60,569 nt of DNA. Origin: Ectocarpus siliculosus. Taxonomy: Eukaryota; Sar; Phaeophyceae; Ectocarpales; Ectocarpaceae. The position numbers and the translations under genes are program-made. Location: NCBI GenBank assembly GCA_000310025.1, contig FN649746.1, forward strand, positions 2,018,993-2,079,561. The letters run 5' to 3'. The notes beneath the pieces are model-generated. The model worked only from the letters and a program-made list of their open reading frames with translations. It was not told the DNA's origin and did not search any database. Positions 20,545-60,569 of the stretch are shown here, in pieces. Each line of letters begins with the position of its first letter. The first letter of the stretch is position 1.

Positions 20545-23500
20545 ATGTCAAGGATGGAGACCGGCATGGTGGAGTGGGTGAGCGTGCGTTCGGGTTTAGG
20601 CGTGAAGCGTTTGGCAGCTGCCGCACTGACTGCCATGTGTAGATCCGAAGTTGACTTTCGTTCGGGTGGAGGCCCCTCTGGAAATTTCTCGTGTTGCGGG
20701 TTTGCCCCCGACAAGCGAGAATGATGTCGACACCGCCGTTCTCTGTTCTTCAACGATACGTGACAACGATCCCCCCCCCCCCCCCCCCCCAACGCGCTGC
20801 TGCGTGAAGAAGCTGGACGGGGTTTAGTTGCTTCTTCCTTGCCTGTTGCCGGCGTGTGTAGGTCAAGCGTGTAGACGCGAACGTAAATGATTTGGCGACA
20901 CCCAAAATTCTGCTGGCAGTCACACAAGAAAAGCAGCACAAACACACCCCAGTTGACACGCAGCCTCATGCACACAAGACGGGCAACCTTTCCGCTAACC
21001 TCCTACGCATACCCACGCGTTTGGCGCGTACGCGAAGGAACCATCGGCTTGTGTTTGCCATTAACCCCCCACTCGTGCTTTGGGTTGAACTCGGCACGCC
21101 AGATTCTTAGAAATCAAGTTGCACCATCGGCGTATCAAACGGCGTCTGTATGAAGCAGCAAACCGGTGACATCTCCCTTCCGACCCGACCCCCCTCCTTT
21201 TTGATGCGCAGTCCTGTCTACCGCCGTTGGGGGGCGGCGGAGTGGGCGTTTGTGCTGTTACGCGACGCAGCCATTACAGTACAATGTTTTTAGGGTGGCG
21301 ACGGCTACCATATGCAGCGTTCAGCAGGAACTTTGTCGGCGGGGGTTTCCTCCTTCTTGCACGCATGCCATGCAGGGTTCAGCTTTTTTTTTTGTTCGGC
21401 CGAAGCACGACCCGTCTTTTGTATCAACGAAGGCAGCGCGAACGGCGCGGGCCCCATATCAACACAAACGACCAAGTGGCGTTGAGGAAATCCATGCTGC
21501 CGTCCTCTCCCTGCCATTCCTTTCAACAAAGGTTGTCGGAACAGATACCGCCTCCCTAACCTTTTTGGTTCACCCCGTTCTAAACCTCACCTCCAGTCCC
21601 GGCTTCCGACGCCATTTGCGTTACATACTCACGCGTTTGTCGATACCGAAGGCGCACAGCATCGTTGAAGCACTACATAGTTTCGTGCCTTATTGTAGTA
21701 GGTGTGAACACGACGCAAAATCAACTACCCCTCCGCGCCTGCTCGATTACCGTATATGACACAAGATAACACACCCCCTTGGCCGATTTTCAAAGCTCGA
21801 TTTCTCAACAGCAGGAAGAGTCACAGCGCCGAAAACGGCGGCGTTGGAACCGTCTCGTCGAGAGCTGTTCGAAAGCGTATTGTTTCATTTATGCATCCTC
21901 TTCGTCGTGGAGTAGTCGAGCTTTGAAAATCGGTCCAGGGGGTGTGTTATCTTGTGTCATATACGGTAGTCCCCCTGTTTTGGCCGCGCTTTCCCGGGGA
22001 TTCGGATCCAATTTTTCAGCAGTCTTTGGTCAGGAACTGGCGCGAGCATGACACGACAGGGCCTAATGTCAAAAACATCACCCGGGCTTCCCGTGCTTTC
22101 TTCGACAACCTCTGTGTGCGATGCTTTTTTTTATTCATATTGGAACCTCGGTCAAAGAAATTCTACCCACTTGAGGCAGTTTTTTTTGCTTTGGCCGATG
22201 TAACGAGCCTTGATTGTAAGGACTTCAACACATACACCCCTCAAGTCCAGTCTTTTGGGGTTTTGTCAGTAAATGAATTGCTTTTGACCCAGCGCGTGTC
22301 CTGTGTCGCCCTTGCTTGCATGCAGGTTAACACCTTCGAGCTGTCATCGAGATGCTCGTCGCTGTCCGACCTAGCCGACGGGGTGGCGCTTTCGGAGGTT
22401 CTCCTTGGAATGTGAGAACAGATAAATAACGGCGCAACGTGTGCCACCACTTGAGAACCTCTCACTTTCGCCGAGGCTCGTTTCGTATATTGTATTGTGT
22501 ATGGGGTATAGTAGACACTACCCCCACAGCGAGCGACAATGAAGGTTTTAGGGTACGATTATTGGCTGGGCTTCATGTTGTTATGGCCAAGTTCTAAGAT
22601 TTTGGGATATTTTAGGTGAGAAACGTTGTTGAGTTCGTCAGTCGTGGCGCGTTCTTCAGTCAGATAAACAAGATCTTAAGTCAGATACACAAGATCTTAA
22701 GTCAGATACACCGGATGGCCACCTTACTTGCTTGTTGAGCCTGTTGCCCACGGGGGGAACAATGTTGTAGTCGTTGCTTGTGCCTGATTCTTTTGGTGTC
22801 GGCGCCGGCAGGTGGGGTAAACGCCACTTCCCCCCTGTTCCCAGCTCCATAACCCCCCGGCAGGCCGGCAGGCGATGGCATTGTTTTTTTCGATGGAAAC
22901 CCCCCCGAGTTTGATTTACGGTCTCGACGGAGGGGTTTCCACAAAGAGCCGTTCACCTTGATGTGGTTACCCGGTCCCTGCCGAGGAGTTTGAGACTCAC
23001 GGAGGTCTTTAGTACAAGCCTGCAACAAGTCATTAGACTACTCAGCGCTGACTGTCGAAGGTTTTGTTTAGGTTACTACAGGCCCGGTGTCCAGCATGGA
23101 GAAAGTTGATGATTTGTCTGCCCTTATTCTTTACCCAAACCGTACCTCTTCACGCCCACCTCCCACCCCCGACGGTACTGGTCGCCGTGCCCCCCCCCCC
23201 CTCTCTACACCTACTCGCGTATCCGCCCAGCGCACCCGGACTGTTCGACCCAAGCGCCATCAAGCGAGACGTGGGAGACAATTGGGCTCTCAAGCTCAAC
23301 AACCTCAAGAAGGTGAGTGTTTTCGATAGAACCGCAAGACATCCCTCTAGCTGGTAGCGGTAGCGGTTGCCTCCGGAAAGGGGGAGGGAGCCTGTTGAAC
23401 AAAAAACGTTCGTAGAAATGAGCCGTATGTTCGAGTAATTGCGGCAGCTCTCCTGGGGATGATCCCGCACACAATGTGCGCTTTCCGTTCAGTACGGTGC

Positions 23501-26500
23501 GGTATGATACGGTACGATATGATACGGGACGGTATGATACGGTATGGTATGATAAGGGTGCGACGTGATACGGGAAGGTATGATATGGTACGGTATGATA
23601 CGGGAAGGTATTATTCGGTACTGTACAGCAGCCGAGGGAGGTTGTTCCCGTGTTGCGGAGCTCGGCGTAGGTAGGTAAGCCTGCGTCTTTTTCTTTTTCT
23701 CGCATTCCGTACCGGCAAGCCGGTTGTTTCCGACGCAAGATGTCAGGTGGTGCCGCGGGGGTCGTTCTGGTGGGGGCTGCCCCCCGTTTCGGTGAACGGC
23801 AGCACAATCATAACGTTGCACGCAGCAGCGGCGGGACACCGGTTTGCGGTTGTGATCATGTCCGTAACTATGGTGGGATTGGTTAAGTGGTGGCTGTGGG
23901 TTTATCATGCATACACGCAAACTCTTTTTGGTTTCATCTTGAGCACATACATGCTTGGGGGTACCCACACACCCCGTCATAGGCACATGACATTTTTGCC
24001 CAGTTCTCTCGCGCGAACACACTTTTTTCCCCACTCGTTTCCAAAGACTGCAAGACGTCCCGTTCGGCTGTGGCATTTTCTCGAACAGGTACAAGACTCT
24101 TTGTGATCGTATGTAAGTTTTCTAAATAGCAGATCTTCTCCCTATCCCTCCCTCCGCATGACGCTGTTTACAATATTAGAAAACACCTACAGCACTCTTG
24201 CCCCCCCCCCCCCCCCTGTGGGGCTTTTTCACATGCCCGGACCAGGGGTCCTTCAACCTTGAGTCCTTCTACAGAAAAAGGCTTGGCCTTGAGTATCCCG
24301 NNNNNNNNNNNNNNNNNNNNNNNNNNNNNNNNNNNNNNNNNNNNNNNNNNNNNNNNNNNNNNNNNNNNNNNNNNNNNNNNNNNNNNNNNNNNNNNNNNNN
24401 TTTGTGACACCAGGGGGCGGGGGGGAATGCATCACGTCTCCCGGGATGTCTACCGGGGGGGGTGCTCCACATCCCGTGTTTCGTTTGAGACACCAGTGCC
24501 GAGGGGGGTGGAGGGGGGGGTGCACCGCGTTCCCTGGGGCGTCGATGGCGCAGGGAGGGAAAGGACGTGCCGCGTTTGGAGAGGCCTATCAATGCCGTTG
24601 GCTTTAGCAATCCCGTTCAGTTGCGCCTCCTGGCTTTTTGGCGGACTCCCGCTGTGTTCTTTTTAGCGCCCTTGCGCGTTTTTTTTGTTTTTGGTAGTCA
24701 CTTGCCGCACGGGTGCATGCTGTAGCGGCTTCCTCTGTCTTCGTGACTTCCCGCGACGCTGCCAAGCTCGCTCAGTGTCCCGCCAACGCTGCACCCCCTC
24801 CTTCAAAGCAAAACGTCTCACATTTTTCCCGCGGTTGTGTTCGCACGCATCCGAACAGATGTCCGTTGAGGGGCAAGAGGCCATGCAACAGGTGGTCCAG
24901 GACGCGATGGCCGGGATGTCTACCTCGGGGCAAGGGGCCCCGCAGGATGATGCGTACTCGACGGACCGCGACGGGGAGGGCGTTGTTGGGGAGGGGGGCG
25001 GGAGCGATGGGGGAGGGGGCGGGGGGCGGGAAGGAGAGGAGGCCTTGGTGGACGAGAGCATGTCGAGGGACCACAGGGAAGAGGAGTGGGCGCTGAGAAT
25101 GTCGGAGACGGAAGATGCGATGGTGCGCGCGGTAGCAGCATGCAGGCGTTGTTGTTGTTGTTGGTTCAAAAAATCTGCTGTCTGTCTGCGGTTCAATGTC
25201 ATTGGTGCGCGCGGTATAATGTAGACGTTGTTTGTGATTTCGTGGTTATCGGTTGGCTATATGTATTTACATTAAAGAAGTACACGCTGTCTTGTTTCCA
25301 CTGCTGTAAGTACCTACGCTTGCAGTGAGTTTCCGTCCCTTCCTGGAAGGGTGTGTTGCCTTACTCTAACTGCTTACGAATTATTTGGCAGATGCATGTT
25401 CGCTCTCTCTTCAACTTGATCTGAATGCTGGATCCGTTGGTTAGCACCAACAAGCTCTGCATTGTCTAGTATGCGCCACGACAGCAGTTTCGAAAGTGCC
25501 TGCCCTAACACTCACACACACACACTCCTGCGCGCCTTGACGGCAGTAAAACCCTTGGAATAGAAAGCTTGTTCGCGTCTTTTTTCCCGCTTCAAGGCAG
25601 ACGTATTTTCATTGGTCAGCCGGTTAACGCCGTCGATGCTATTTCAAATACACGCACACAGGCACACACACACGATTGGCCACGGTGACACGCCCGCATT
25701 GGTATTCCCAGGACCGCTTTCGCGAGGATTATATATGTTTATCTGTGAAATCGAGAGGGAAGATTCGGATCCCTAACTCTCACCCCCGAACCCCCAACTC
25801 CGGTACCCCTACTAACGTATACGACACAAGATAACACACCCCCTGGACCCATTTTCAAAGCTCGAGCACTCCACGACCAAGAGGATGCATAAACGAAACG
25901 ACACGTTTTCGGAGAGATCTCGACCAGACGGCTTCAACGCCGCCCTTTTCGGCACCCCCCACCCTTTCTGCTGTTGATAAATCGAGCTGTAAACAGTCGG
26001 TCCAGGGTGTGTGTTATTTTGCGTCGTATACGGTAAAGCCGAGCTTAATACCCTCGCGAAGGCCACTATATTCCTATATCGATAGCCTCCCTCCTTGGGT
26101 GCAATTGGCCTCATCGCCTCACGTGGCATCCAACTGTTGCCTGTACGCCGGTTGTCGTCAATAATAGCTGGAGTTGAGGCGAGAACGGGAGCGCGAGTCG
26201 GCCTTGAGGACCGAGGCGGAGAAGGAGGTGGCAGCGCTCAAGGAGAGGACCGTTGAGCTGGAGGCCCACGCCAAGGCTAGGTGGGTGTGGTTAGATTGTG
26301 TTGTGTTGAGATGGATAGGGTCAAGGTGGATTGGGTGCGGTTAGATCGAATTAAGTCCGCATGGAATGGAATGGTAGGTGGGTGTGGTTAGATTGGGTTG
26401 GAGATCGATTGTTGTTGGTCCTTTCGGGCTGTGTAAGGAGATGACCGTATTTGGTGCTTGTTTGCTTGCCATATCTTGTGGATTGGGTTGGGGTTGAGAT

Positions 26501-42693: not shown

Positions 42694-45276
42694 TCAAGCG
42701 CGTCCGCTGCGGCGAGGGATCATGCTCCTTCCCGCCTTCGGTGACGGGCGGGGGATAAAGTTTCTCCTGCCTCCTCCAGCTGCCGCTTCCCCCTGCCTGG
42801 TCGACTCGTCCACAGACTCCGCCGGCCCGGCCCCGCCGTCCTCCTCCCCGGCGTCAAACTCCACCGCCGCCTGCACCACCGCCGCCGCCGCCGCCGCGCC
42901 GGCAGAAGCCCCCCTGCCGCCGCCGCCGGTTGACGAGCTCCGGCCTCCGAACCTCGAGGACGGCGCCGCCGCCGCCGCCGCCGCAGCCAAGCGCGACGAC
43001 GGTACGGATGCCACCCCGGGAACCGCCGCCTTCCGCGGGATCCCGGTCCGGGGCAGCCGGCTCGGGCCGCCGGTCGCCTCCTCGACGGCCATCGCGGCCG
43101 ACCTCACGGCCGCCGCGGCCGCGGCGGCCGCCTTGCCGCGCCTCGCGGCCAGGCCACTCCCGCCTATGGTGGCGCGGTGGTTGNNNNNNNNNNNNNNNNN
43201 NNNNNNNNNNNNNNNNNNNNNNNNNNNNNNNNNNNNNNNNNNNNNNNNNNNNNNNNNNNNNTCCCGCTTTCTTGGGGGGCGAAAACATCGCAGTCCTCGC
43301 CCCCCCCGGTTACGATTGCCGCGGGGAACGTACGGCGGCCTTTAGCGGCGGCTCCTGCTGCTGCTGCTGCGCCTGAGGCGGCGGCGGCGGCGGCGGCGGC
43401 GATGACGGCGACACTGCGGGCGGAACAACGGCTGCCGCAACGTGGTAAGGCGGCGGCGGCGGCATTGGAGTACCGGCCACCGGCGTTCGAACCGGGGTGG
43501 CGACGCCGTGGACCTCCACAAGGAGACGTTTTCGGGGGCCGACCGGCATCCCCATCTGTTCGCCCACAAGTTTCCAGCGGGACCGGGTGTGGTGGCGGAA
43601 GAGGTTAAACGAGTGACAAAAAAAAAATAATCTGGCACTTTTCCGGGACCGGCAGCGAGCGTTCGGCAACAACTTGGTGCTGTTAAGACAAACGAACTCG
43701 TCAAAGTCCGCCGAGACAGCAGGGCGGAGTTGAGGGGGGCCGAGCCAAAACAGACGCGACCCTCTTGAGCATTCATGCATTCGGCGTGCGCAGCGGTGTG
43801 CGGGAAGGCTTCTTCACGCACGCATGCGCTGATGCGCGGTAACCCATCGCTGAGAAAAGCTTATCCTTACAAGTTGAACCGTAAATATCGTTACAATACC
43901 GCTTGCTCTTCCCCCAGTGGCTCGAAAAACGGCAAGTTGAGTGCGCGTCGTACACCCCCCACTCGCCTCCGTCAAGTCTCCCTCGGTGAGGTGCTGCAGG
44001 TCGTCCAACCGGACCTCTCGACGTCGGAACTCCTTGAAGTATTTGCTGAGGGAGACCTTGCCCAGGACCCCCCGCAGGCTGTCGTACGCGGCGTCTGAGT
44101 CGCTTCCGGACCGCGGCGAATCGACCGGGGTGTCTGCCGGGGTGTCGTTCTGTCATTACAAATAACGCGCACAAAAAACACAAAAACAAAACATGGGTCA
44201 ACCGGATACGTAGCGCGGTCGATGCTAATAGTAAAGACACACACACACCCAGACATCCGAACAGTACTCTAGCTTCCACGATGACACGAGGTCCCAGAAG
44301 TCAGAAGAGCTTTCCGTTTTTTTAGTTGCACTGAGACTGACGTAGTTCCTGTGGTCAGCCGGTTAGCCGTAGATGCTAATTAGAAAGACACAAGCAACGC
44401 CAAGGACATGGGGCGCCAGGATCACAAGACGTGCGCCAGAGGGTGTCGGCAACAAAATTGCGCGACTCGAAACAAGCAAGCGTCAATCGAGCAAGAATGC
44501 AGCATCGATTGCTGCTCCGCGGCCCCTTACACAAGCCAAGCTTACCGGGGTCGAAATGGTAGAGTACCGCCCCTTCCTCCTGTACGGATCTGACCCCTGC
44601 TGGCCGAAGAAACCCGACCCACCACGCCCTCGAGATGTCTCGTGACCCGCCGCCGCCGCCGAAGACGACTCCCCGCCCTGGCCCCACCTCCCCCCGGCGC
44701 TGCTACTCGAAGCGACGCTCTCGGAGCTGCCCCTCCCTCCCCGGGGGGTAGCGTACGACTCCTCCTCGCTCTCCAGCACCGTGTCCGCCGGGAGGATGCT
44801 TCCCAGCCGGCCGCCACCGCCGCCCTCCCCGCGAGCGGCGGGCGAAACGTCGACGACGCCTTCGTCTTGGAACTCCCTGAGCGCTGCCGCAGATCCCCCC
44901 GGTGCATCGCCGCCCCGGCTCCTCCGGCTGGCTCGCCTCGCCTCGAGGGCTCGACGTCGGGCCGCTATGGTCTCCGCAGCGGCGGCCTCCGCGGCCGCTC
45001 TCGCCGCCGCCGGCGACGCCCCCAGAGCCACCGCTTCGGCCTCCTCCGCTGCTCCTAGTTCCGCCGCCTCCGTGGCCACCGCCGTCGCGCGGAGCGTTCC
45101 AACGGACGCTCCCCGCGACAGGCGGCGGGATATCGACTGCCTCCGGCTCTCGCGGTTCTCGGAGGTGGACACCTGGCGCTTGGCGGACATGAGCGAGGCC
45201 AGGTTGTTGTTAAGGTTTCCCAGAGCCTCCTGCGTGACCACCAAATTGGAGCTGGAGGACGGGCTGCCGAGGCTGT

Positions 45277-45307
<31 letters not shown>

Positions 45308-46303
45308 GTGGCCGGTCCGCGAGAGCCTAGGGGACCTTACCCCCCCGGGCCCGCTGCCGCTGCCGATGCCGCTCGTCCACGACCCGGGCCCGCGCAGCAA
45401 GTGCCGCCTCCCGGCCGTCGCGACAACGTTTGTCGCGACAACGTTTGCCGCCGCCCCGCCCTCTCCGTCGTCCATGGCACCGTCCGCGGGAGCCTTCTGC
45501 AGGGGCTCCTCCCCCGTCCGTGGCGTTGGCGCTTGTCGCGATTGTCGCCGCCGGGCGTTGAGCCTGGCCATCCGCTCTCGAACGGACTCGTCCGCGGAGG
45601 CACGCACGGCGAGCATCTCCTGGCGTTGCTGTTGTTGTTGTTCGTTCCACGAAGGCCTAGACTCAGCCGTTGTTCCAACGGTCCCGTCCTCTTCCCCGCG
45701 TCCAAAAGACGCCGGCAACGACTCCGGCAGCGACAACGGCGCCGCCTCCAGCGGCGGCGGCGGCGGCTGCAGCTGCCGCCGCCGCTCCTCCCTCCAGCTC
45801 ATCCTCCTCCGGTCGTCGCTGTCGCTGCCGACCTCGAACCCCAACGAGCCTCGCCCGCTTCCCGCGCCGTCATCGTCGCCGACGCTCCGCAGGCTGTCCG
45901 GCCGAAGCAGTACCGATGATGCCGACGACGAGGCACCCGAAGCCAGGGAGGAGGAGACCGCAGGAGGCGGCGGAGGCATCAGCTTGAGCGCGTCTTCCTC
46001 GTCCGGCCGGGCACCGTGAGGGGCACTCCCCCCCCCCGGCCCGACGATCCCCGGAGCCCCGTCCACGGACAGCCTGTGCTGGCTCCACCGGAGGGGATCT
46101 GCCGGGGGAGCCTTGAGAAGCATGTCGTCAAGGATGTCGTCCCACGCACTTCTTTCGCCTTCCGGAAGGGCCAGCCTGGTGTTGGGGGGACGGGCGACAG
46201 ACCGGAGGGCGATGTCCACGTTGGCTTTGGCGCTTAGAGGACTACACTTGTACACAGTAACTTGCACCAACCAGTGCGGGGGCTGAAAAGTATGAGTATC
46301 CAT
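42694..46303 (-). CDS. SAM-domain protein with long low-complexity N-terminal region; may be the 3' part of the TOG gene
   Basis: Exon 1 ends at 44546 (donor CCG|GTAAGC) and starts either at the ATG at 46303 or at an acceptor such as 46232. Exon 2 is 44149-43967, exon 3 is 43555-43334, and exon 4 starts in the gap at 43184-43261 and ends at the stop at 42694. The SAM domain is assembled across exons 2 and 3: LGKVSLSKYFKEFRRREVRL, then LQHLTEGDLTE joined to MGMPVGPRKRLLVEV, matching the SAM helix 1 pattern and the GIxxxGPRKRLL ending. SAM domains form homo- or hetero-oligomers. The intron between them starts with GC (GAG|GCGAGT). Exon 1 (about 560 residues) is disordered, rich in Ala, Ser, Gly, Gln and Arg, with one likely coiled segment near LGNLNNNLASLMSAKRQ. 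The C-terminus is Ala/Gly-rich and ends MIPRRSGRA. Specific function unknown. Confidence 0.72.
43184..43261. other. Assembly gap (78 N)
   Basis: Seventy-eight undetermined bases in a GCC/GGC-rich part of the SAM gene. The acceptor and first codons of its last exon are hidden here. Confidence 0.98.
44194..44229 (-). repeat. Dispersed ~35-bp repeat, copy in SAM-gene intron
   Basis: On the minus strand it reads TTAGCATCGACCGCGCTACG and continues to ATCCGGTTGACCC, the same family as the HOOK-intron elements. A second, shorter copy is at 44352-44380. Confidence 0.6.
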
Positions 46304-46859
46304 AGAAACAAAAACTATTTACTCAATATCATTACCAAAAACAGGTTTAATATTCTTTTGGACTACGGTAGCACAATCTGTGCACGCTGTCGCGTGGAAT
46401 CGTAACGGCGGTTTCAGCCGCTGCCATTCTTCGCGGTGGTTCAGCGTGAGACGTAATTAGGACGGAGCTCTACCCCTCGAAAACAAAATAAGCAATCGTC
46501 TCATTTTCTGCATTTTGGCGTTCCACCGAAACCACCCCCACAAGTTATGTCACCAGAGCGGAATCCAAAATATCTGGGTGACTTGCCACGGGGCGACCAA
46601 GACTTTCGCCATGATTCGGTTTCTCGAGAGCGTGTGTGGGCGTGTTTAGACGCTCATCCTTCACTCGGCCTTTTCCCAGTCAACAGCCCGATCGGCTTCT
46701 GGAACGAACGCAGGCCGACAGCCCTTCCAACAGCAGTCTCACAGCGACCGACTTCACCGCTGCCTCAACAAGTCGTCGTCGAAAACGTTCATCAAAAAGA
46801 GCGCACCGCTGCCCAACACATTCGTCGCCAAATACCTTCATCAGAGAGAGCGCACTCAC

Positions 46860-47476: not shown

Positions 47477-50400
47477 CACCCGCGGTTCGGCCAAGCGTTG
47501 TTCCGGCACCCTCGAGGCCGGAGGCGGCGGTGTGAGGAGCTCGAGACTGTCATCGTCGTCGCTGAGGAGGTCGATCGCGCCGCTGCCGCTGCCGCTGCCG
47601 CCGGCCGGCGTGGGTGTCGCTGGCGGGCGTATCGGCGGCGAATCGGGCACAGCCAAGGGCTCCTTTGCGACGGGTGAGTTGTTACCGCTGCCAACTGCTG
47701 CTGCTGCCGCTGCATCGGCGAAGGACCTTTCGAGCTGCATCCCCGACGGACAAGTTGGAAAAAAGCAGAGGTGGGGGTGTGGTCACGGAAACGCATGCCG
47801 TAGTCGTTTGACCTCGCAGAACTACAATGCCGGGACGGAGGAGGGATATGCCGGGATTTCGCCGGTGCGGGGTACGTTTCACAAAAATGAACCAAAATCT
47901 GGCCATCATCCTTGCAAGGGGGGATATTGTCTGATGAAGAACGTTCAGCACAAGAGTACCGCCAGCCCAAGGGAACGTCGCGAAACCCCTCAAAAGGCTT
48001 TTTCTGACCATGTAGAGCAACAGCGATAAATGAACGCGCACCTAGCGTTTGTCCCAGAGTCTTGCAGAAGTAGGCCTCCTGCTGCTGCATGTACCGACGC
48101 AAAAGCACGACCGTGATGCTATTGTTGCTGCCGTCTTCAAAACAAACGAATCCATTCCGGTCTCCGCGCTCTGTGGGCTTAGAAAAACAACGAAAACCTG
48201 GTGGACAAAAACGCCATACCTGAGATTTGATACGAGCCTCCATGCCCTCCACCCCAAGGTCATCCCTGGCGACGTCCCCTTCCGCAGCGTAGAGAGCACC
48301 CGAGAGGGAAATGCCTGCCATCTTCACGGGCAGCTTCGAGCTTCCCAGCATAGCCTTCGCCGCTGAGTACACCTGCGGGACGGCAGGATTGCCAGAACGG
48401 ACATGTCGTCATCATCGTAAGAAACGAATGGAAACGACCTTCGCCTTGCTGACATGGAGGAACGGTGCTGTCAGTCACTGACGGTGGGAGGGTCCAAACC
48501 ATCCAAGTGACCTGCAAGGTCTACACACCCAAAATGTTTTTGAAGAGGCGAGGGGCAACTGTGAGAAAAACCGCGACAGCAGTGGTCGGATGGAATTGGA
48601 AAGACGTCAATCTCACCATCGAGAGAAAAACAACCACGAAGTACTTCGAAGAACAAGTCTTGGAGATCATGCCCAAGCACTAGACCTGACTTTGTAACCT
48701 CCTTTCACGTCAATCTACACGAACAACACACCGTACCTCCGCCCTTCCACGTCAGCCTACGCGAAGAACACACCCGTACCTCCTTGCGGGAATCCCCCCC
48801 GCCAGCGACGACGGTCCTGCCCTTCCCCATCCCCGCCGACATAGCCCTCACGCATCCGGTCACCGCCTTCGGCGCCGCCGCGGCCACCTTACTCCTCCCA
48901 CGCCCGCCCTCCTCCCCGCCGGGAGGGAAGAACTCGTTCTCAAGCCCGCCGGCGCGGGCCGCTAGGGCAAGCCAGGCCCCGCGGCGGGCGAGGCCGCCGC
49001 TGCCGCCGGCGCCGGCCAGCAGGGTGGCGGCGGCGGCGTCTGCTTTTGCCTCAACGGGGGCGCGGCCGCAGCACAGAGCGCGCTCGGCCAGGGCGGAGGC
49101 TAGGGAGGAGCCTTCTTCGGCGCCCATGGTAGACCGTAGCGAGAGGTACGCCGTCAGGGTGTCCACCGCGGCGTCTACGGCCTGCGTCCGAGGGAGTTGA
49201 TAGAGATACGGGTGAGGTGGGGGGGCGGGAAGAGCGGCCGGTGTGGCACGAAGGTTTGCGCGATAGGGAGCGATGGGTGGGGGGACCTGCTTAGGATGGG
49301 CGGTCCGTGTTGCACCAAGGGTTGGACGAGAGTTGTGAGAGAGCGATGGATAGGGGCATGCTTAAGATGGGCGGCTGGAATAGTACGAAGGGCTGCACGA
49401 GAGCTGATAGAGAGCGATAAATGGGGGCATGCTTAAGAGGGACAGTCGGTTATGCACAAAGGGATGCACGATAGTTGATATAGAGAGCAATGCATGGGGG
49501 CATGCTTAGGAGGAGCAGCCGGTCTAGCACGAAGTATTGCAAAAGAGTTGATGGAGACATAGATGGCGGCAAACGTAGAAGCGGTGGCCCATGGAGCACG
49601 GAGGACCGCGCCAGAGTTGACAGAGAGCGGTGGATGGGGAGAAGGGACGGGCCACGGAGCACTATGGGGTATGGGGTGCAAGGCAAGGGAGGCAACAGCG
49701 CAAACTAGTCGCGTGTCACGCGGTCGGTGCATGACGGCGCCAAGAGGCAGAACAACAACGAGGACCCCTACAGCAGCAGAAGCGGCCGCGACGAAACGGG
49801 TCCGAAAACGTGGTACCGCGGTCAAGCCGCTGCCCCAAACGAAAACAGCAGCAGGGTCGGCGTCGCCTCTAGACAGATGGTTGCCTATCTCACCTGAACA
49901 TTCTTGTCTTGGAGCATGCGCGGCAGTAGCGGGCCTACCTTGCCGGCGGCCCCTTCGACGCGGCTCCGGCAGGCGAGGGAGGCCGCCTGCAAAAAAACAG
50001 CACGTCCGGAAAAGGTCCGAACGAGGGAATGGAAATGAGAGAATCAGCTGTGGGTGTTTGATGCGGGAAATTGCAGCGAAACAAATCAAGAGGCGCGGGC
50101 ATCCTGGACGGGCATCAGGGCCGTGGGAGGCAAGCCCTAAAAACAGGACAAAACAACTGAATTTCACGACGGCGGTTGATCACGCTAAATCAAGGTCGTA
50201 ACAGGGAAGAAAAGAAAATGACAGACGAAACCACGAGGGTTGTATATCAAGATAACTCATTTTCGCAACACGAGTGGGCGGGGGAGAATACCAAAACAAT
50301 GACGAGGGTAGTCGACCAAGTGAAACGAAGGTCATACAACGGGAGGTGAAAAAATGAGCAGGAGGGCGATCAAGTGAAACTTAAGGTCATCTATTTACAC

Positions 50401-53400
50401 GGAATAGATGGAATACTAACACCACGATGGTGTGATCTACCAAGTGAAGGCGCAGACGAGGGCCATACTGTGCACGGGAAAACAGAAACGCAACCAGTTT
50501 GCGCTACAGGGGCATGAATGCAGGGCCAGGCCTGGCCGTGACCGACAAACGACACACACCCACCTCGAACACAGCCACCCTCTTCTTCCAATCCCTCTCC
50601 TCCAGGCACGCCTCCAGTCCCGCGAGGCCATCCTCCCCGCCGGCACTAACACCCCCCTCTCCCGCTCCCCGCCCAACCCCTTCCGGCATCACAGCAGCCT
50701 CCTCGACCGTCTCAGACGCCGCCCTCGCATCCGCCTCCCAAGGCTTAGCTACGACGGCGTCGTTATCGCCCGGCTTGTCGCTACTACCACCGTCGGGGAC
50801 GGCGCCGGCCCTATCGCCGCCACCGGGCCGCTTCTTCTTAAGCCAAGGCTTGACCGGAGCAGCGGTTTCTTCCACCGCCGCTGCGGAATCGCCCGCCTCG
50901 TCACCAGCACTACCACCGACCTCAGCAGTCGAGTCCTTCGGCAGGGCACCGGCCTTCTTTGTCTGCCAAGGCTTTGCGGGCGCCGCCGCTGGTACCGCCT
51001 CCTCCGTACCATCGGCAAGCGGATCAGACTTCGCAGCGCCCCTTCTCTGCCAGGGCTTAGCGGGGGGCGCGGCGGCGGCGGCGGCTTCCGCCTGGTCCTC
51101 TCCCCCTCGTTCCGCCGCTGGCTTTCGAGAAGACGCGACTTTTCTTCGCCCCTGCCACGGCTTGAGCCCGCCCGCCGGGGGCTCCGCTGGCCCCCCGTCC
51201 GTACCCACCGCCGCCTGGCTCGAAGTGTCGAGGACCCCCCCGCCACCGTTTCCTGAAGATGAAGAGGCTGCCCCGGTTGTCTCCAGACCCCCGCTGTCTG
51301 CTCCTGGGTCGAACCCGTCGAGCTGGGTGGACCGCTTCCCTCCGATCGGGCGGTCGTCCCTTGATGCCGGTGGGACGTTGTCGTTCCCGTCGTCTTGCGA
51401 GGCGTTTTGCTCCTGTCGAGGCGAGGGTCACCGCAGATCGCAGAGCGGAGAGGGGTCGGGTCAGGCGGGGCATTGCAGGGTCGTCCCCCAAGTCTCGGAG
51501 AAGACACAACAATCTTATAAACACATACCACGTTCTTCTTCGTGCGCTATTCTGATCCTTGCCGCTGCAAAATGTCTAGGAGGGGTGCAATCTCTCCGCC
51601 TCTTTCGATATTACCCCCCCCCAATTGATGTCGCATCCCTCCATTAGAGAGCTCCTATCCGGTGTTACCGTACGCACCTGTTCTGCCCACGCCGCCTCCG
51701 CCTCTTCCTGGTCCTCCGCAGCCGTGAGCATCTTGCCTCTCTTGTTCTCCGTAAGCACCCAGCCGTCCGTCTTGCCTCGGTACCCCACTCGAGCCCACAA
51801 GTCCTTCATCTATGGTCGCCGACAAGGACAGGGATAGCCCCCACGGTACGAAATGACAACGAGTTGCTGGAAAGACAACATCAATATTCCGACAACGGCA
51901 CCGCAACTTTTGGCCAATGGTGTTATTCCTTCTCGTACTTAGTTTAGTAGAAGGGCTCTTTTCTTGGGGGAGCGCGCGGATGGTGTATAGGGGGGGGGTG
52001 TACTCATGTAACTGTATGCCGTCGTCGTTAGGCCATTGACCTCGCATTCCAACAACGCCGGGGCGGAGCGATACGACGGGTTCTCGCCGGCCCAGGCTAC
52101 ATTTCAGAAGGACGAAGCAGTAGCCGGCCATCATTCTTCCTTGCGATGAATGGAGGAGTAATCCGAGGCAAGGGTCATGGCCAGGCAAGCATCAAGCAAG
52201 AGCACGAAGCGGTGGCGGCACAACCCTCGGAATATGGCGAGCAAGCAAGCAGAGGAACAAACAAGCACACGACAACACAAACAATCCATCCCTAGGCACC
52301 CCCAGAAAAGGCAAGAGAGACGAAGAATTCCCTTCCGAGCGGTACTACTCAAGCTTGCCAAAATTTATAGGACGTTAGACACCATCGCAAACCCCTGTAC
52401 GCGACAAGGTAAACACAAACACATCAGCGCATGTGCGCCTGCCCCCCCTATCTCTCTGCCGTTGTCGCCGAGAACGCCCACCTCCAACACCTTGACCACG
52501 TGCTCCTTCTGAACCACCCCAAGGTCCATGGAGAACGGGTCCGCTTCTTCCCGAAGCTTGATCACTCTGCGCCACGTCCGAACCGGGGCAAACGACACAA
52601 ACCAGCAGCAGGCACCGGTGAGATCAACGTGCAGCAGAAGGGCGCCCCGAACACGGGCACAGCAGCAACAGCGCCGGCATTGTCCTGATTGCGGGGTGTC
52701 TTGAGAGGTGTGCTCGGCAAGAGTTGGCTCTGGCGTTCAACCACCCCAGCCCCTGCTAGCGACAGCTGGCAAGCGGTTGCCGCGGTACTCCTCGGCGCTT
52801 GGCGGGATATTCACACGAAAATAGTTCCACATGTTCTCCCGGCACGTCGAGGACAGGGTCAAAATAAAATAAAAATCGTTCCACATTCTCCAAGTACGTG
52901 AAAGAGCGGGTCAAAACAGCCCCCACCTCTTTGGCACAGCAAAAGCAAGGATGACGACCAGCTTCTGGCTAATCCTTGTGAAACGCAGCCTGGGCCGGCG
53001 ATTTCAATCCGTCCCGGCATTGTAGGGATGCAAGGTCTAACAACTACGGCATGCATTTACATGACTCCCCTCCCGTAATACTTGCCCGAGCGCCTTCATG
53101 TACTCCACGGGAACCTCATCGCCCCCCGACACCGCTCCACCACTCGCAGCACCCTCTTCGCCCTCCGCTTTCTGCGCCGCGCGCAATGGCCGTTCGTCCT
53201 CCGGCCCTGGCGTGACGCCCCCGGTGCTACCTCCGCCGCCACCGTAAGAAACGGGTCCATCTTCTTGGCCCGGCGGGAACTCGCTCGGCGGTACCCACGC
53301 ACCCTTCCCGCCGCCAGTCAACGGCCGATCCTCGCTGTCCCCTGTCGCCGCAGTGGGCGCGGCGGGAGGTGGCTTTGGCTTAGCACCCGTCAGGGGTCTA

Positions 53401-54904
53401 TCAGCGGGATCCTCCGGTAGAGTCCCGCCGCTACTTGATGCGAAGGCCGCCTCCTGCTTGTGGAACTCCCTCGCGGCGGAGGCTTGGTCTTCCGAAGGGA
53501 CAAGGGTCGGGCCTCGCTTGTTGGCGGTGAGGACCCAGCCGTCCTCTCGACCGCGGTAGCACACACGCACCCACAACTTGGACGTCTGGAACGTAACGGG
53601 GTAAAATTGCCGAGAGGATTCAACTTCGGTGTGGCACGTCTGACTGCTGCTGTCATCGAGGCCGATCCGTTGCTCAATCTAGAGCGCGACACACAGGGAT
53701 CGCCCATACGGACAGCCTGCTGTAACAAGCCCTACGCAACAAATCCGAAACAACTATCCCTCCCCCCGACAATTCGGTGGCGGCATTCCTCGAGCAGGAG
53801 GCCAACAATAGGAGAACCTTCAGTGACCAAGATCAGGTTCAAACGAAAACTCGGCAACACACACGCAACGGCAACAACAGTCCCACTTCCCACCACAAGC
53901 AACAGAGAGAAAGTCTGGAATGAAACGTACCTCCAGCACCTTGACGATATCCCCTTTCCTCACGCTCCCCAGGTCCATCGAGAAAGGGTCCGCCTCTTCC
54001 CGTACTTTCACGAACCTTGCCGCAACAGAGTCAACACCCGAGAACCATTAACGCCACACGTGGCGAGCGCATAAAAGCCGGTAGCAGCGGGGGGCGGTGT
54101 CGACATTGTGAGCAAGCAGGGGGTGTGAGTGACCTCGACAACCTGTTCATAAACCGCACGGCACAGGCCGGTCCACGAGAACCGTGGAAACCTCCAAGCA
54201 GCAATCAAGAGGCTCGTGTATCCCTATTCACTAGAAATGGTGCGGTGGCCTCGAACGCGCGGCCCGCATCAGCTGGAGCGCTTGCACTGCTGTGTTTACC
54301 CAAGTAGCTCTACTCTGGTCCTCATCAGGGCTGGGTCTACATCCAGAGGGAGACAAAACCTCTAATAGGGCAAGTTCAAGGTACGCGTAGAACGAATTTA
54401 CCTATCGGAAGTCAAACTCACCCCAACGCCGTCAAGTATTCCGGAGATACAGCTTCACCCTCAACAGAACCATCCGCCTGCCCCCCTGCGTCAACTCCCC
54501 CTCCTGCCGACGGCTTCACGCTGAAGGCGTCATCCCCGACTTGGCCACTTCCACCAGACGAAGCTGGTTCATCTTCTTGGCCCGGTGGGAACTCGCTCGG
54601 CGGTACCCACGCACCCTTCCCGCCGCCAGTCAACGGTCGATCCTCGCTGCCTCCTATCGCCGCGGAAGGGGCAGCGGGACGTGGCTTGGCGCCCGTCAGG
54701 GGTCTGTCGGACGGATCCTCCGGTACAGCCCCGCCGCTACTTGCGGCGAAGGCCGCCTCCTGCTTGTGGAACTCCCCTGCGGCGGAGGCTTGGTCTTCCA
54801 AAGGGACAAGGGTCGGGCCTCGCTTGTTGGCGGTGAGGACCCAGCCGTCCTCTCGACCGCGGTAGCACACACGCACCCACAGCTTGGACGTCTGCAGAGG
54901 AGGA

Positions 54905-54952
<48 letters not shown>

Positions 54953-57900
54953 CCAGAGGATATTACCAGCTGGATATTACAATCAAAACCGTAGAGTGGA
55001 GATTATAGGTATGAACGGGCCAACGCTAGATGGTGCATTTCATTGTTGGGTACGACGGATAACTCACCCCCTTGCCGTGTGCTGCAGCGCTCCAACTGAA
55101 CAACACCCCACCACACCAAACCCCTCGAAATAGGATAAAATCGCCGTCTTGCGACAAGGTCCAACACACCAACACAGTCGCCACAACCGTGAGCCAAAAA
55201 CACGCCATATGTTGCCGAACACACGCGTCACACAGCCAACACTATCCCGGGGAATGGACAAAACCGAAAGCGACGCTTGGTGCGTTCCCACGCAACAAAC
55301 AGCTCCACAATGTGGGGTCCTCATGCTCCTGGGACGTACCTCCAGCACCTTGACGATGTCCCCCTTCTTCACGCTCCCTAGGTCCATCGAGAAAGGGTCC
55401 GCCTCTTCCCGTACTTTCACGAACCTTGCAGTGAGCGTTATTAGCAAACCAGCGGTTACAAACCACATTTATCGGAAGGAACGGGCATGGGATACATCTA
55501 GGCAGGGAGGCGCAAGAGTCAAAACAGTCCCTGAGCCAGACCGATATTGGACTTTGGCCTGGAGAACAATCTCTTTGGGTGGTATCAACGATAAATCAGG
55601 AAGAAAGCCTCACACTGACACCCTAAAAAGAGGAAGGCTGCCAGGCATACCATTGTACCCACAACGCTTTCGTCTGGACGTCTTGACTATTACTTGCAAG
55701 GCCGGCAGAACGACTATCAACATGTCGAATATCAAACTCACCCCAACGCCGTCATGTATTCCGAAGACACAGCTTCATCCCCAGCCGAATCATTCCCCTG
55801 CCCCGCTGCGTCGACGACACTTCCTGCCGATGCCTTCTTCACAAGAGCGTCCCCGCCGTCGCCACTGCTAACAGGTCCATCTTCTTGGCCCGGTGGGAAC
55901 TCGCTCGGCGGTACCCACGCACCCTTCCCGCCGCCAGTCAATGCCCGTTCATCGCCGTCTCCAGCTACGCTGCCCGATGCCGCCGTAGGTGCAGCGGGAG
56001 GTGGCTTAGCGCCCGTCAGGGGTCTGTCGGACGGGTCCTCCGGTACAGCCCCGGCGTCATTTGCGGCGGAATTGGCGAAGGCCGCCTCCTGCGCGTCGAA
56101 CTCCCCGGCGGCGGAGTCTTGGTCTTCCGAAGGGACAAGGGTTGGGCCTCGCTTGTTGGCGGTGAGGACCCAGCCGTCCTCTCGACTGCGGTAGCACACA
56201 CGCACCCACAGCTCAGACGTCTGCCAAGGAAAAACAAAAGAGGATTTGTTGCTGCAAACATCAGGACCTAGAGCAGTACCGCCATGAAAAAACTATCGCG
56301 ATGCATACGGCTGTGGTATGTAGTATGCTGTCAATCGTCCTTGTATGCGAATTCCACCCTCTTGCGGCCGTGATGTTGTATGACTCACCTTTGGTATTCA
56401 CATGAGTCACTCAACAAACACCGCACCGCGGGGTAAAAACCCCTCTCGGACAAAAATCCTGGCCTACCCACAAGGTGCACACAGGTGTCCCAAACTTGTG
56501 CTCCCAACAAAAAAACAAGGTGCTACCAGCCCAACGAAGCACTGAGAATCGACGACTTCACACAGCAGTAAGCAACACCACGCATCTGCAGTCCCCTGTG
56601 TACGCCAGTAAAAGCAGCAGCGCAGCTTAAGGTGGCTAGGTGGCTTCGTGCCGGCACGTACCTCCAGCACCTTGACGATGTCTCCCCTCTTCACGCTCCC
56701 CAGGTCCATCGAGAAAGGGTCCGCCTCTTCCCGTACTTTCACGAACCTTGTTGCAAACGTTTTCAACAAATCAGCGGTTACACAACCAGGACCATCGGAC
56801 GGAACGAGCATGACACGGGCAGGTTAAGGCCAAAAAGCGAAAAAAAAAAGTATGGCTCAATGAGCACGCGAGTGGGTTTGTGGTTGAGAATATTTCGTCC
56901 GGCATGCACAGGCAGCGCTCTTGAGCAAAGAGGTTTTGAGCCCGCTGGGGGAGGGCACCGACTGATCCCGACAGGAGTATTTCGGGGGGCGATTCTGATG
57001 CCGCAGGCTGTGTGACGTGATCGTGCACGCTGCGAAAGGAGCATCGACCTCCGCATGGCAACCTTCGAATAGCTTACCCATGCAACCATACCAGCTTTGC
57101 ATTGAGCCTTCCGCAGGCCAAGCCTGGGGAACGAGTCAAACCATCGGAAACTCACCCCAACGCCGTCATGTACTCCGAAGACACAGTTGCACCCCCAGCC
57201 GAATCATTCCCCTGCCCCGCTGCGTCGACGACACTTCCTGCCGATGCCTTCTTGACAAGAGCGTCTCCGCCGTCGCCACCACCAACAGGTCCATCTTCTC
57301 CGCCCGGCGGGAACTCGCTCGGCGGTACCCACGCACCCTTCCCGCCACCAGTCAACGGTCGATCCTCGCTGTCCCCTGTCGCCGCCGCAGGCGCGGCGGG
57401 AGGTGGCTTAGCGCCCGTCAGGGGTCTATCAGCGGGATCCTCCGGTACAACCCCGCCGCTACTTGATGCGAAGGCCGCCTCCTGCTTGTCGAACTCCCCC
57501 GCGGCGGAGTCTTGGTCTTCCGAAGGGACAAGGGTTGGGCCTCGCTTGTTGGCGGTGAGGACCCAGCCGTCCTCTCGACCGCGGTAGCACACACGCACCC
57601 ACAGCTTCGATGCCTGAAGAGGAGCAGCAGCAGCAGAGAACATTGCGACCAAAACCGTAGAGTGGAGATGACGGAGATGAACAGGCCCATGCTAGATGGC
57701 GCAGTTCATTGTTGGATACGATGCATACCTCACGCTCTTGCCGTGCGCGCTGCTACACTCGACGATGCCACCGCAAGCGCTTCGCTCGCATCAATCACTG
57801 AACATCGTCCAACCATACCAAACCCCTCCAGGACAAATCGCCGTCTTGCGATAAGGTCCAACGCACAAAAAAAACGGCCGACGACAGCGAGCCAAGAAAC

Positions 57901-60569
57901 ACGCCAGATGCCGCAAAACACGCGCTCCACACAGCCAACACTTATCCCGGGGAATGGGATAACGCAACAGCAGTAACACTCGGTACACTCCCGCACAATG
58001 AAAGCTCCACAATGTGAGGCCCTCATGCTCCTGGGACGTACCTCCAGCACCTTAACGACGTCTCCCTTCTTCACGCTCCCCAGGTCCATCGAGAAAGGGT
58101 CCGCCTCTTCCCGTACTTTCACGAACCTTGTTGTGAAGTATTAAACAAAATCAGGGGTTATATCTAGGCAGGGCGAGGCAAGAGTCAATACAGTCCCAGG
58201 GCCAAATAGAAATTGAACTTTGGCCTGGAGAGCAATCTCTTTGGGTGGTGTCGATGAGAGATTGGGTAGAAAATTACACCCTTAACAAAGAAACAAAGAA
58301 ACTAAAAAAACAAAGAAACAATGAAACGAAATGCTGTGCGAACTGACCCTTCATGCCGCGAGACTGGTCTAGCCTTCACCTCGCGATCCCCTCCCATGAA
58401 CCGCAACCCTTTCGTCTGGAGCTATGGACTATTACTTGCAAGGCCTGCAGAACGATTACCAACAACAAACTCACCCCAACGCCGTCAAGTACTCCGAAGA
58501 CACAGCTTCACCCCCAGCCGAATCATTCCCCTGCCCCGCTGCGTCGACGACACGTTCCGCCGATGCCTTCTTGACAAGAGCGTCCCCGTCGTCGCCACCA
58601 CCAACAGGTCCATCTTCTCCGCCCGGCGGGAACTCGCTCGGCGGTACCCACGCACCCTTCCCGCCGCCAGTCAACGGTCGATCCTCGCTGTCTCCTATCG
58701 CCGACGTAGGCGCGGCGGGAGGTGGCTTAGCGCCCGTCAGGGGCCTGTCGGACGGATCCTCCGGTACAACCTCGCCGCTACTTGATGCGAAGGCCGCCTC
58801 CTGCTTGTCGAACTCCCCCGCGGCGGAGTCTTGGTCTTCCGAAGGGACAAGGGTTGGGCCTCGCTTGTTGGCGGTGAGGACCCAGCCGTCCTCTCGACCG
58901 CGGTAGCACACACGCACCCACAGCTTCGATGCCTGAAGAGGAGCAGCAGCAGCAGAGAACATTGCGACCAAAACCGTAGAGTGGAGATGACGGAGATGAA
59001 CGGGCCCATGCTAGATGGCGCATTTCATTGTTGGATACGATGCATACCTCACGCTCTTGCCGTGCGCGCTGCTACACTCGACGATGCCACCGCAAGCGCT
59101 TCGCTCGCATCAATCACTGAACATCGTCCAACTATACCAAACCCCTCCAGGACAAATCGCCGTCTTGCGATAAGGTCCAACGCACAAAAAAAACGGCCGA
59201 CGACCGTGAGCCAAGAAACACGCCAAGATGCCGCAAAACACGCGCTCCACACAGCCAACACTTATCCAGGGGAATGGGATAACCCAACAGCAGTAACACT
59301 CGGTACACTCCCGCACAATGACAGCTCCACAATGTGGGGTCCTCATGCTCCTGGCACGTACCTCCAGCACCTTGACGATATCTCCCTTCTTCACGCTCCC
59401 CAGGTCCATCGAGAAAGGGTCCGCCTCTTCCCGTACTTTCACGAACCTTGTTGTGAAGCATCAAACAAAATCAGGGGTTACATCTACGCAGGGTGAGGCA
59501 CAAGTCAAAACAGTCCCTGAGCCACACCGAAGTTCGACTTTGGCCTGGAGAACAATCTCGTTGGGTGGTATCGATGAAAGGTCAGGGGGGGGGACGTATC
59601 CTACATTTACACCCAAAAAAACAAGACGAAGGCTGGCAGGGCGATGTTCATGCAAAACTACTGTGCGATCTCACCCTCCATGCCGGGAGACTGGCCTACC
59701 GTATATGACACAAGATAACACACCCCCTGGACCGATTTTCAAAGCTCGATTACTCCACGACGAAGAGGATGCATAAATGAAACAATACGTTTTCGAACAG
59801 CTCTCCACGAGACGGTTCCAACGCCGCCGTTTTCGGCGCTGTGACTCTTCCTGCTGTTGAGAAATCGAGCTTTGAAAATCGGCCAAGGGGGTGTGTTATC
59901 TTGTGTCATATACGGTAACCTTCCACGCCACGGTCCCCTCCCTTTAACCACAACGCTTTCGTCTGGACGTCTTGACTATTACTTGCAAGGCCGGCAGAAC
60001 GACGATCAGCTTGTCGGATGATATCAAACTCACCCCAACGCCGTCATGTACTCCGAAGACACAGCTTCATCCCCAGCCGAATCATTCCCCTGCCCCGGTG
60101 CGTCGACGACGCTTTCCGCCGATGCCTTCTTGACAAGAGCGTCCCCGCCGTCGCCTCTGCTAACAGGTCCATCTTCTTGGCCCGGTGGGAACTCGCTCGG
60201 CGGTACCCACGCACCCTTCCCGCCGCCAGTCAGCGGTCGATCCTCGCTGGCTCCTGTCGCCGCCGTAGGGGCAGCCGGAGGTGGCTTAGCGCCCGTCAGG
60301 GGTCTATCGGACGGGTCCTCCGGTAGAGCCCCGCCGCCATTTGCTGCGAAGGCCGCCTCCTGCTCGTCGAACTCCCCCGCGGCGGAGGCTTGGTCTTCCG
60401 AAGGGACAAGGGTTGGGCCTCGCTTGTTGGCGGTGAGGACCCAGCCGTCCTCTCGACCGCGGTAGCAAACACGCACCCACAGCTTGGACGTCTACGGGGA
60501 GGGTGGGTCAAGGTGAAATCGGAGCGGGGGGGGGGGGGGGGGGTCGAAGGGCCATTTTGGGGTGTGGGG
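46860..60569 (-). CDS. Giant SH3-like-repeat / TOG-domain protein, 5' end beyond the window
   Basis: Exons, 5' to 3': B1 60491-60034; A2 59446-59362, B2 58932-58475; A3 58126-58042, B3 57613-57156; A4 56746-56662, B4 56220-55742; A5 55424-55340, B5 54891-54422; A6 54015-53931, B6 53585-53086; A7 52566-52482, B7 51809-51678; C 51412-50564; D1 49986-49894; D2 49181-48780; D4 48372-48220; D5 47734-46860. All phases agree, giving about 1945 codons in the window. A plus B codes an SH3-like fold (FVKVREEADPFSMDLGSVKK, GDIVKVLE, then TSKLWVRVCYRGREDGWVLT, ANKRGPTLVP) and a linker with two DRPLTG motifs. Exon C is disordered with five KPW motifs, then LEACLEERDWKKRVAVFE. D1-D5 continue a HEAT-like TOG domain of the XMAP215/CKAP5 type (LLPRMLQDKNVQAVDAAVDT; AKAMLGSSKLPVKMAGISLS), which binds tubulin. 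D5 is a low-complexity acidic region with poly-Ala and poly-Gly. If the donor at 46859 is not used, a stop follows at 46856. Confidence 0.75.
46965..47006. repeat. (GCA)14 trinucleotide tract coding poly-alanine
   Basis: Forty-two bases of pure GCA on the plus strand lie inside exon D5 and encode an alanine run on the minus strand. Neighbouring (GCC)n tracts near 47218-47247 and 47440-47476 encode alanine and glycine runs. Length variation between individuals is likely. Confidence 0.9.
48737..48822 (-). repeat. 43-bp tandem duplication carrying the donor of TOG exon D2
   Basis: The exon end and donor (GGAG|GTACGG) occur twice, 43 bp apart, at 48780 and 48737, with matching downstream sequence (GTGTGTTCTTCGCGTAG against GTGTGTTGTTCGTGTAG). 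The proximal donor keeps phase 0 with exon D4; the distal one would exit in phase 1. Confidence 0.7.
49195..49660. repeat. ~70-bp minisatellite in the D1-D2 intron
   Basis: About seven imperfect units start with GTTGATAGAGAGCGATGG-like sequence (near 49195, 49258, 49333, 49401, 49472, 49546, 49614), most containing GGGGGCATGCTTAAGA and AGCACGAAGG-type segments. It fills most of the intron and begins only about 14 bp from the D2 acceptor. Confidence 0.8.
51678..52566 (-). repeat. SH3-like module 7, most diverged, linker lost
   Basis: A 52566-52482 reads VIKLREEADPFSMDLGVVQK, EHVVKVLE. B 51809-51678 is only 44 codons (MKDLWARVGYRGKTDGWVLT, ENKRGKML), has no DRPLTG linker and leaves in phase 0, joining exon C. 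It is probably the oldest, ancestral-position module. Confidence 0.85.
53086..54015 (-). repeat. SH3-like module 6, GC donor
   Basis: A 54015-53931 (GSVRKGDIVKVLE) and B 53585-53086, the longest B linker (500 nt). The B donor is CTCGG|GCAAGT, a consensus GC-type donor at the position where the other modules use GG|GTGAGT, so the phase is kept. Confidence 0.82.
54422..55424 (-). repeat. SH3-like module 5 with expanded CTG tract at its B acceptor
   Basis: A 55424-55340 and B 54891-54422. The B linker has SVKPSAGGGVDAGGQADGSV and ends EYLTALG. The pyrimidine tract before exon B is an expanded trinucleotide repeat, listed separately. Confidence 0.88.
54908..54951 (-). repeat. (CTG)n expansion in the acceptor tract of exon B5
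   Basis: About 15 CTG units on the coding strand lie directly upstream of CTCCTCCTCCTCTGCAG|ACG. The homologous acceptors of modules 2 and 3 have only about four CTG units before CTCCTCTTCAG. Confidence 0.9.
55742..56746 (-). repeat. SH3-like module 4
   Basis: A 56746-56662 and B 56220-55742. A has GSVKRGDIV; B starts TSELWVRVCYRSRED and has a 7-codon longer linker with ANSAANDAGAVPEDPSDRPL. The A-B intron differs in sequence from those of modules 2, 3 and 5. Confidence 0.88.
57156..58126 (-). repeat. SH3-like module 3 (near-identical to module 2)
   Basis: A 58126-58042 and B 57613-57156, separated by a 428-bp intron. Exon lengths equal those of module 2, and the ASKLW start is shared. A reads GDVVKVLE where module 2 reads GDIVKVLE. 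Confidence 0.9.
58475..59446 (-). repeat. SH3-like module 2 (near-identical to module 3)
   Basis: A 59446-59362 and B 58932-58475, separated by a 429-bp intron that matches the module 3 intron almost base for base. B starts ASKLWVRVCY instead of TSKLWVRVCY, a change shared only with module 3. Confidence 0.9.
59699..59915 (-). mobile_element. MITE copy 3, inserted in the SH3-module array
   Basis: A 217-bp element in the intron between exons B1 and A2, with TA on both sides (59697-59698 and 59916-59917) and CCGTATATGACACAAGATAA termini. It has the same length as copy 1 and nearly the same sequence in the opposite orientation. The homologous intron after module 2 keeps an uninterrupted site: GAGACTGGTC-TA-GCC around 58370-58371 against GAGACTGGCC-TA-[element]-TA here. 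Insertion therefore followed the duplication. Confidence 0.92.
60034..60491 (-). repeat. SH3-like module 1, exon B only
   Basis: First module in the window; its A exon lies beyond the right edge. The linker carries SDRPLTGAKPPPAAP and SEDRPLTGGGKGAWVPPSEF. The donor GG|GTGAGT is followed by an intron carrying MITE copy 3. Confidence 0.88.
60526..60543. repeat. Poly-G tract
   Basis: Eighteen G bases near the right end of the window, about 35 bp upstream of the B1 acceptor on the minus strand (a poly-C run there). Confidence 0.95.

Follow-up and report, generated by a model that had tools for sequence, protein, structure and literature searches.

Does the Ectocarpus siliculosus genome contain, within a gene for a TOG-domain protein, a tandem array of exon pairs in which each pair encodes one SH3-like domain, and by what exchanges may such an array have grown? 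A preliminary description, made from the letters of the DNA, claimed seven two-exon modules of this kind. The window analysed here is the whole stretch of 60 569 nucleotides (C21:2018993-2079561), and the genome searched comprised 189.5 Mb in 492 contigs.

Gene model, exon phases and assembly gap

The gene model was spliced by hand and consists of 18 exons on the minus strand, all predicted from the sequence. Modules are numbered from the N-terminal side, from M1 (B1, 60491-60034) to M7 (A7, 52566-52482; B7, 51809-51678). The SH3_3 scores listed refer to the bacterial-type SH3 family PF08239 (curated cut-off 27 bits) and are not strictly comparable, the queries for M2, M6 and M7 being long and those for M3-M5 comprising 70 residues.

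60034..60491, minus strand: exon B1 (M1), 458 nt, phase 0 in, 2 out, acceptor ccgtag, donor gtgagt
59693..59918, no strand: foldback element in the intron between B1 and A2, not part of a module; 98% identical to 21747-21972 and 84% to 25812-26036
59362..59446, minus strand: exon A2, 85 nt, phase 2 in, 0 out
58475..58932, minus strand: exon B2, 458 nt; SH3_3 score of M2 37.5 bits
58042..58126, minus strand: exon A3, 85 nt
57156..57613, minus strand: exon B3, 458 nt; SH3_3 score of M3 41.0 bits
56662..56746, minus strand: exon A4, matching A2, A3 and A5 at 96-98% identity; the introns on either side are for the most part unrelated to those of other modules
55742..56220, minus strand: exon B4, 479 nt; SH3_3 score of M4 37.8 bits
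55340..55424, minus strand: exon A5, 85 nt
54422..54891, minus strand: exon B5, 470 nt; SH3_3 score of M5 41.5 bits
53931..54015, minus strand: exon A6, 85 nt
53086..53585, minus strand: exon B6, 500 nt, GC donor gcaagt; SH3_3 score of M6 37.7 bits
52482..52566, minus strand: exon A7 (diverged), 85 nt, identity to the remaining A exons 71-74%
51678..51809, minus strand: exon B7 (short, without linker), 132 nt, phase 0 in, 0 out; SH3_3 score of M7 38.4 bits
50564..51412, minus strand: linker exon, in which the TOG part begins, with a single DRPIGG and five KPW motifs, 849 nt, phase 0 in, 0 out
49894..49986, minus strand: TOG exon a, 93 nt, phase 0-0
48780..49181, minus strand: TOG exon b, 402 nt, phase 0-0
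48220..48372, minus strand: TOG exon c, 153 nt, phase 0-0, outside the stretch aligned to PF21041
46856..47734, minus strand: last exon with acidic low-complexity tail and stop codon TGA, 879 nt

Between B1, where the window's part of the array begins, and the TGA at 46856, the hand-made model reads through 1946 codons without an internal stop. Its introns are of the GT-AG type (16 of 17) except for one GC-AG intron after B6. The splice sites of the linker, TOG and tail exons were picked so as to preserve the frame, and the open frame in that part is therefore partly by construction.

Exon A is exactly 85 nt long and is entered in phase 2 and left in phase 0 in all six copies found, as had been claimed. 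The count of seven modules holds for the B exons; the window contains six A exons only, the M1 partner of B1 being absent. Phase 0 in and 2 out, given for exon B, is found in six of seven copies (458-500 nt), whereas B7 is 132 nt long and runs from 0 to 0. The period of about 1.32-1.45 kb describes the A-to-A distances (1320-1449 nt) but not the B-to-B distances (1306-1776 nt), one of which is lengthened by a dispersed foldback element of about 226 bp. As a unit, A+B leads from phase 2 to phase 2 in M2-M6 (five of the six complete modules) and from 2 to 0 in M7.

In a search of the whole genome (189.5 Mb) at least seven matches to B and at least six to A were obtained, all inside the array. 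The B exons of M1-M6 are mutually 77.7-95.9% identical. At the level of sequence comparison the likeness of the repeats is far above chance, and the array of two-exon modules is a real observation with the corrections given above.

The foldback element looks like a member of a high-copy MITE-type family, judging by its copies: at least 39 further places at 96-100% identity among the 40 scored of 2480 candidates. A separate repeat (approximately 70% identical) is common to three introns of the gene (51991-52138, 52945-53065 and 47770-47915), one copy being inverted, and near the B5 acceptor the A5-B5 intron contains an (AGC)n run (54907-54956, about 17 units), the length of which could vary. 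Downstream of the gene on the same strand a long low-complexity frame (44000-46318, minus) is probably a separate gene; it gave no Pfam match on that frame, and a stretch at approximately 44100-44000 resembles, by eye, the beginning of a SAM domain.

A run of 9816 Ns begins at 60570, directly past the end of the window, the start of which is likewise preceded by Ns. The A partner of B1 would fall in this gap, and the 5′ end of the gene lies in or beyond it. Long C or G runs occur at both edges of the gap, which therefore need not stem from the array. Over 30 kb on the far side no array exon was found, the search yielding one DNA match of 39 nt (to the intron that follows B7) and, at the protein level, matches with E values of at least 1.5. 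Three exons on the same strand past the gap (C21:2090019-2092039), with an ATG start at C21:2092039, SH3b-like text and usable splice sites, the last of them exiting in phase 2 towards the gap, are possibly the 5′ end of the array gene as judged from these features. They were not counted as parts of it: their SH3_3 score (16.1 bits, E 0.013) is below the cut-off and a profile comparison with the modules was negative.

The SH3-like domain and the TOG part

The intron between A and B had been placed within an SH3-like fold, and the profile searches bear this out. SH3_3 was matched above its cut-off by all six complete modules (M2-M7; 37.5-41.5 bits, on queries of unequal length), while exon A alone reached 22.2 bits, A extended into its intron 20.6 bits, and exon B alone gave no match to this profile. 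Exon A corresponds approximately to profile positions 2-29 and exon B to the remainder up to 51; since each covers part of the profile, the intron lies inside the domain. A swapped control (B followed by A) scored 28.3 bits, above the cut-off, its best stretch being the A part only. The cut-off alone is therefore no proof of the A-B order; what argues for the join is that the true order scores 9-13 bits higher.

The assignment to an SH3-like fold holds at the level of the sequence family, through SH3_3 membership of the six complete modules, whereas sequence matches in the PDB are weak: a profile search with the module gave 6nnb as the best entry (E 0.0044) and HCK SH3 domains at E 0.17-0.21. 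Against the eukaryotic family SH3_1 (PF00018, cut-off 22.9 bits) M2-M6 remained at 17.4-20.4 bits and M7 was unlisted at E up to 1.

The linkers between modules are rich in Pro, Gly, Ala and Asp. Those of M1-M6 contain DRPLTG in 11 exact copies, the second copy in M4 reading DERALTG, and a [RK]xxPxxP stretch as well as WVPPSEFPPG in six of six. Aromatic residues of eukaryotic SH3 domains bind PxxP; by eye, the SH3b core is without these aromatic positions, and for this reason no ligand can be named and self-binding is not claimed.

Elsewhere in the genome one further SH3_3 match above the cut-off was considered (C2:605385-605498, 30.4 bits) and set aside as belonging to a different gene; it is the only such match in the six-frame search, in which nine candidates were scored, and the gene around it has UBA-like text. 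Exon matches to SH3_1 over its cut-off are located at C472:533845-533976 and C472:484470-484568. A scan of IMG/VR for relatives of the module gave 19 pattern matches, none of which was confirmed.

For the TOG part the spliced query was assembled from the end of 51412-50564, 49986-49894, 49181-48780, 48372-48220 and the start of the tail exon. It matched PF21041 (XMAP215_CLASP_TOG) with E 4.2e-6, residues 10-105 of 285 being aligned to profile positions 8-115 of 230. The description as a TOG protein is supported by this match, the score of which sits exactly on the threshold (27.1 of 27.1 bits). According to the available part of a study of Stu2, the tubulin contacts of TOG2 comprise a Trp in HEAT A and an Ala and an Asn in HEAT B, together with basic residues in the C, E and F loops and a Thr and a Pro in the D loop (PMC6641166). 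Placed by eye, the query shows the Trp of the HEAT A loop and the Asn of HEAT B but lacks the Ala adjacent to the latter.

A search of the PDB with the spliced TOG part (phmmer, E up to 1) was negative. AlphaFold2, applied to TOG exon b by itself, gave a helical model with a mean pLDDT of 51.5, which is too poor for a fold search. The six-frame search of the genome with PF21041 also gave no match; control genomes gave none either, and this result therefore says little about a domain split between exons. Compared with its own genome, the TOG part produced five matches at the array locus and one elsewhere at E 0.8, and CLASP_N produced two matches elsewhere, one of them barely over the cut-off (27.7 versus 27). 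The DRPIGG of the linker exon resembles the DRPLTG of the modules, a likeness that ties the array to the TOG part.

Divergence of exons and introns

Exons A2-A6 are mutually 92.9-97.6% identical, and M7 stands apart from the other modules (A 71-74%, B 58-60%). Between M7 and M2-M6 the SH3b core has dS 1.3-2.0 and dN 0.26-0.27 (ratio 0.13-0.21); against M1, for which exon B only can be compared, dS is saturated beyond the range of the formula. Of the 55 residues that do not vary among M2-M6, M7 retains 39. These values support the view of M7 as an old module that would have been under purifying selection. Within M1-M6 the core has dS 0.045-0.20 (dN/dS 0-0.53) and the linker dS 0.09-0.61 (dN/dS 0.37-0.78). 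Third positions account for 9 of 17 variable columns in the M1-M6 core, a weak excess (P 0.075), and for 58 of 139 in the linker, where the excess is modest (P 0.024).

Unequal crossing-over had been proposed as the source of the array. It suits M2 and M3, which are 95.2% identical over 1114 nt including the intron (97.4% in the A-B intron), and whose likeness fits derivation from a single recent unequal exchange or conversion. The pattern of exons and introns across the array implies a more complicated exchange, or replacement of introns. The proposed link to the symmetric phases is looser than was claimed, in-register exchange being frame-safe whatever the phases; phase symmetry matters when a unit is first duplicated, or when A and B are skipped together. 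Overall the divergence supports a later in-register amplification of M1-M6, apparently homogenized by unequal crossing-over or conversion.

Introns had been described as repeated together with the modules. This is true of some, which are up to 97% identical, but others are unrelated beside exons of 96-98% identity. Homology links the A-B introns of M2, M3 and M5 (80-97%, local scores 266-796), whereas pairs that include M4, M6 or M7 score 18-29, where 200 shuffles reached at most 27. Among the B-A introns, numbers 1, 2 and 4 are homologous (73-76%, scores 127-169), number 3 shows likeness near its 3′ end only (27-48), and numbers 5 and 6 are without homology (19-24). Both introns flanking A4 matched nothing but themselves in the genome search. 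Around A4 (region 56221-57155) a near-identical 85-nt exon is thus embedded between largely unrelated introns.

Could the modules simply be old duplicates that owe their likeness to constraint at the protein and synonymous level rather than to recent exchange, while their introns diverged? The identity of A2-A6, found while several introns are at or about the shuffle level, would suit this account, which nevertheless appears unlikely. Synonymous divergence is saturated towards M7 (1.3-2.0 for M2-M6) yet low among the M1-M6 cores, and hence no general synonymous constraint is at work. M4 is moreover nearer to M2 (dS 0.158 overall, 0.207 in the linker) than M5 is (0.253), yet the A-B intron of M4 is unrelated and that of M5 is 80% alike. 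When intron divergence was simulated, homology was lost down to the level seen for M4 in 0 of 200 runs at d 0.15, in 4 of 200 at d 0.3 and in 90 of 200 at d 0.45. Because homology is so rarely lost within the range of the M2-M4 dS values, plain divergence does not account for M4. For M6, with a linker dS of 0.31-0.61, the last of these frequencies is compatible with the old-duplicate account, and divergence with many indels is a possible cause of the loss of intron likeness there. For the array at large the mosaic is read as exons held alike by exchange while some introns would have been replaced.

Proposed architecture of the product and known systems

The account that we consider probable, though by no means secure, is that the window holds the 3′ part of one gene encoding a TOG protein, with at least seven SH3b-like modules on the N-terminal side, a KPW linker, a single TOG domain and an acidic tail. 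Its basis, as far as the DNA itself goes, is the exon structure, the phases, the open frame of the model, membership of SH3_3 and a TOG match at threshold. The TOG domain would engage tubulin, and the SH3b array would form a multivalent arm by which the protein is tethered close to the growing ends of microtubules, either to a partner or along the lattice. With the array taken as such an arm, its length would change avidity.

A wider form of this proposal must be called doubtful. It would have the SH3b array set the avidity of the TOG tubulin binder, with a module number that varies between strains through unequal exchange, extra modules inside the 9.8 kb gap, and exons homogenized while introns are replaced, so that the modules evolve in concert independently of their introns.

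The modules might alternatively be cassettes, with splicing taking in varying numbers of A+B pairs. Skipping A or B singly shifts the frame, whereas joint skipping is frame-neutral (2 to 2), and the alternatively spliced ROCO genes discussed below offer a precedent (PMC11378527, available part); the splice sites of the array are, however, ordinary save for one GC donor, and on analysis the idea seems improbable. That the array and the TOG part belong to separate adjacent genes, the first giving an array-only product that ends after B7, is quite improbable. The B7 frame is indeed open beyond the donor before a stop is reached (frame 51579-51809), but the B7 donor (gtgcgt) and linker acceptor (gacag) fit, with phases 0 and a frame that runs on to the TGA, and the DRP[LI] motif common to the linker exon and the modules also argues against a split. 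Multiplication of a single module by mis-assembly is barely credible: the array does adjoin the 9816-N gap and M2 and M3 are 95% alike, but the modules differ in their linkers, in exon length (B 458-500 nt, B7 132 nt) and in their introns, several of which are unrelated.

In the brown-algal ROCO (LRR-ROC-COR) genes, as described in the available part of PMC11378527, which cites earlier Ectocarpus work, tandem LRR exons occur, each 72 bp long and in phase 2, with alternative splicing. The single-gene array proposed here shares with them tandem exons in one phase, so that repeats could be gained or lost in frame. It differs in having two exons per SH3b domain and in being part of a TOG protein, whereas in the ROCO genes one exon equals one LRR motif and the product is a candidate immune receptor (PMC11378527, same part). 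One COR match was found in the genome, and a scan for 72-nt LRR exons that took in 19.8 kb of its surroundings and upstream sequence was negative; common lineage with the ROCO arrays is therefore not claimed.

Fibronectin type III repeats are encoded by two exons each, so that a globular module is split internally and the outer phases match, and they too stand in tandem. They differ from the array in their fold, in being extracellular and in lacking a TOG domain. XMAP215/CLASP proteins resemble the product of the array gene in the TOG domain and, going by placement by eye, in the Trp and Asn of the HEAT A and HEAT B loops respectively; in the part of PMC6641166 available they have arrays of TOG domains, whereas here one TOG is seen and the array is of SH3b. 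SH3D21/MNMIP1 is an SH3 protein inside manchette microtubules, with one to three SH3 domains per protein across animals, and is thus a further case of SH3 on microtubules; it is animal, its domains are SH3 rather than SH3b, and the available part of the report mentions neither a TOG domain nor an exon array (PMC13373224).

The statement that no TOG protein with such an array has been described stands for the literature covered: none was found by title or opening of the abstract among the matches listed, in a collection with subscription journals mostly outside its scope. As far as this coverage and the available parts of the sources go, the mechanism of tandem frame-safe exons is known in kind and the combination of an SH3b array with a TOG domain is undescribed.

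The mosaic of exons and introns offers a test case for the confinement of gene conversion to exons. If a transcript confirms the model, frame-safe exon amplification, which in brown algae is described for candidate immune receptors (PMC11378527, available part), would be joined with a cytoskeletal TOG protein. If the proposal is true, array length would be a natural and measurable variable for the effect of multivalency on a microtubule regulator.
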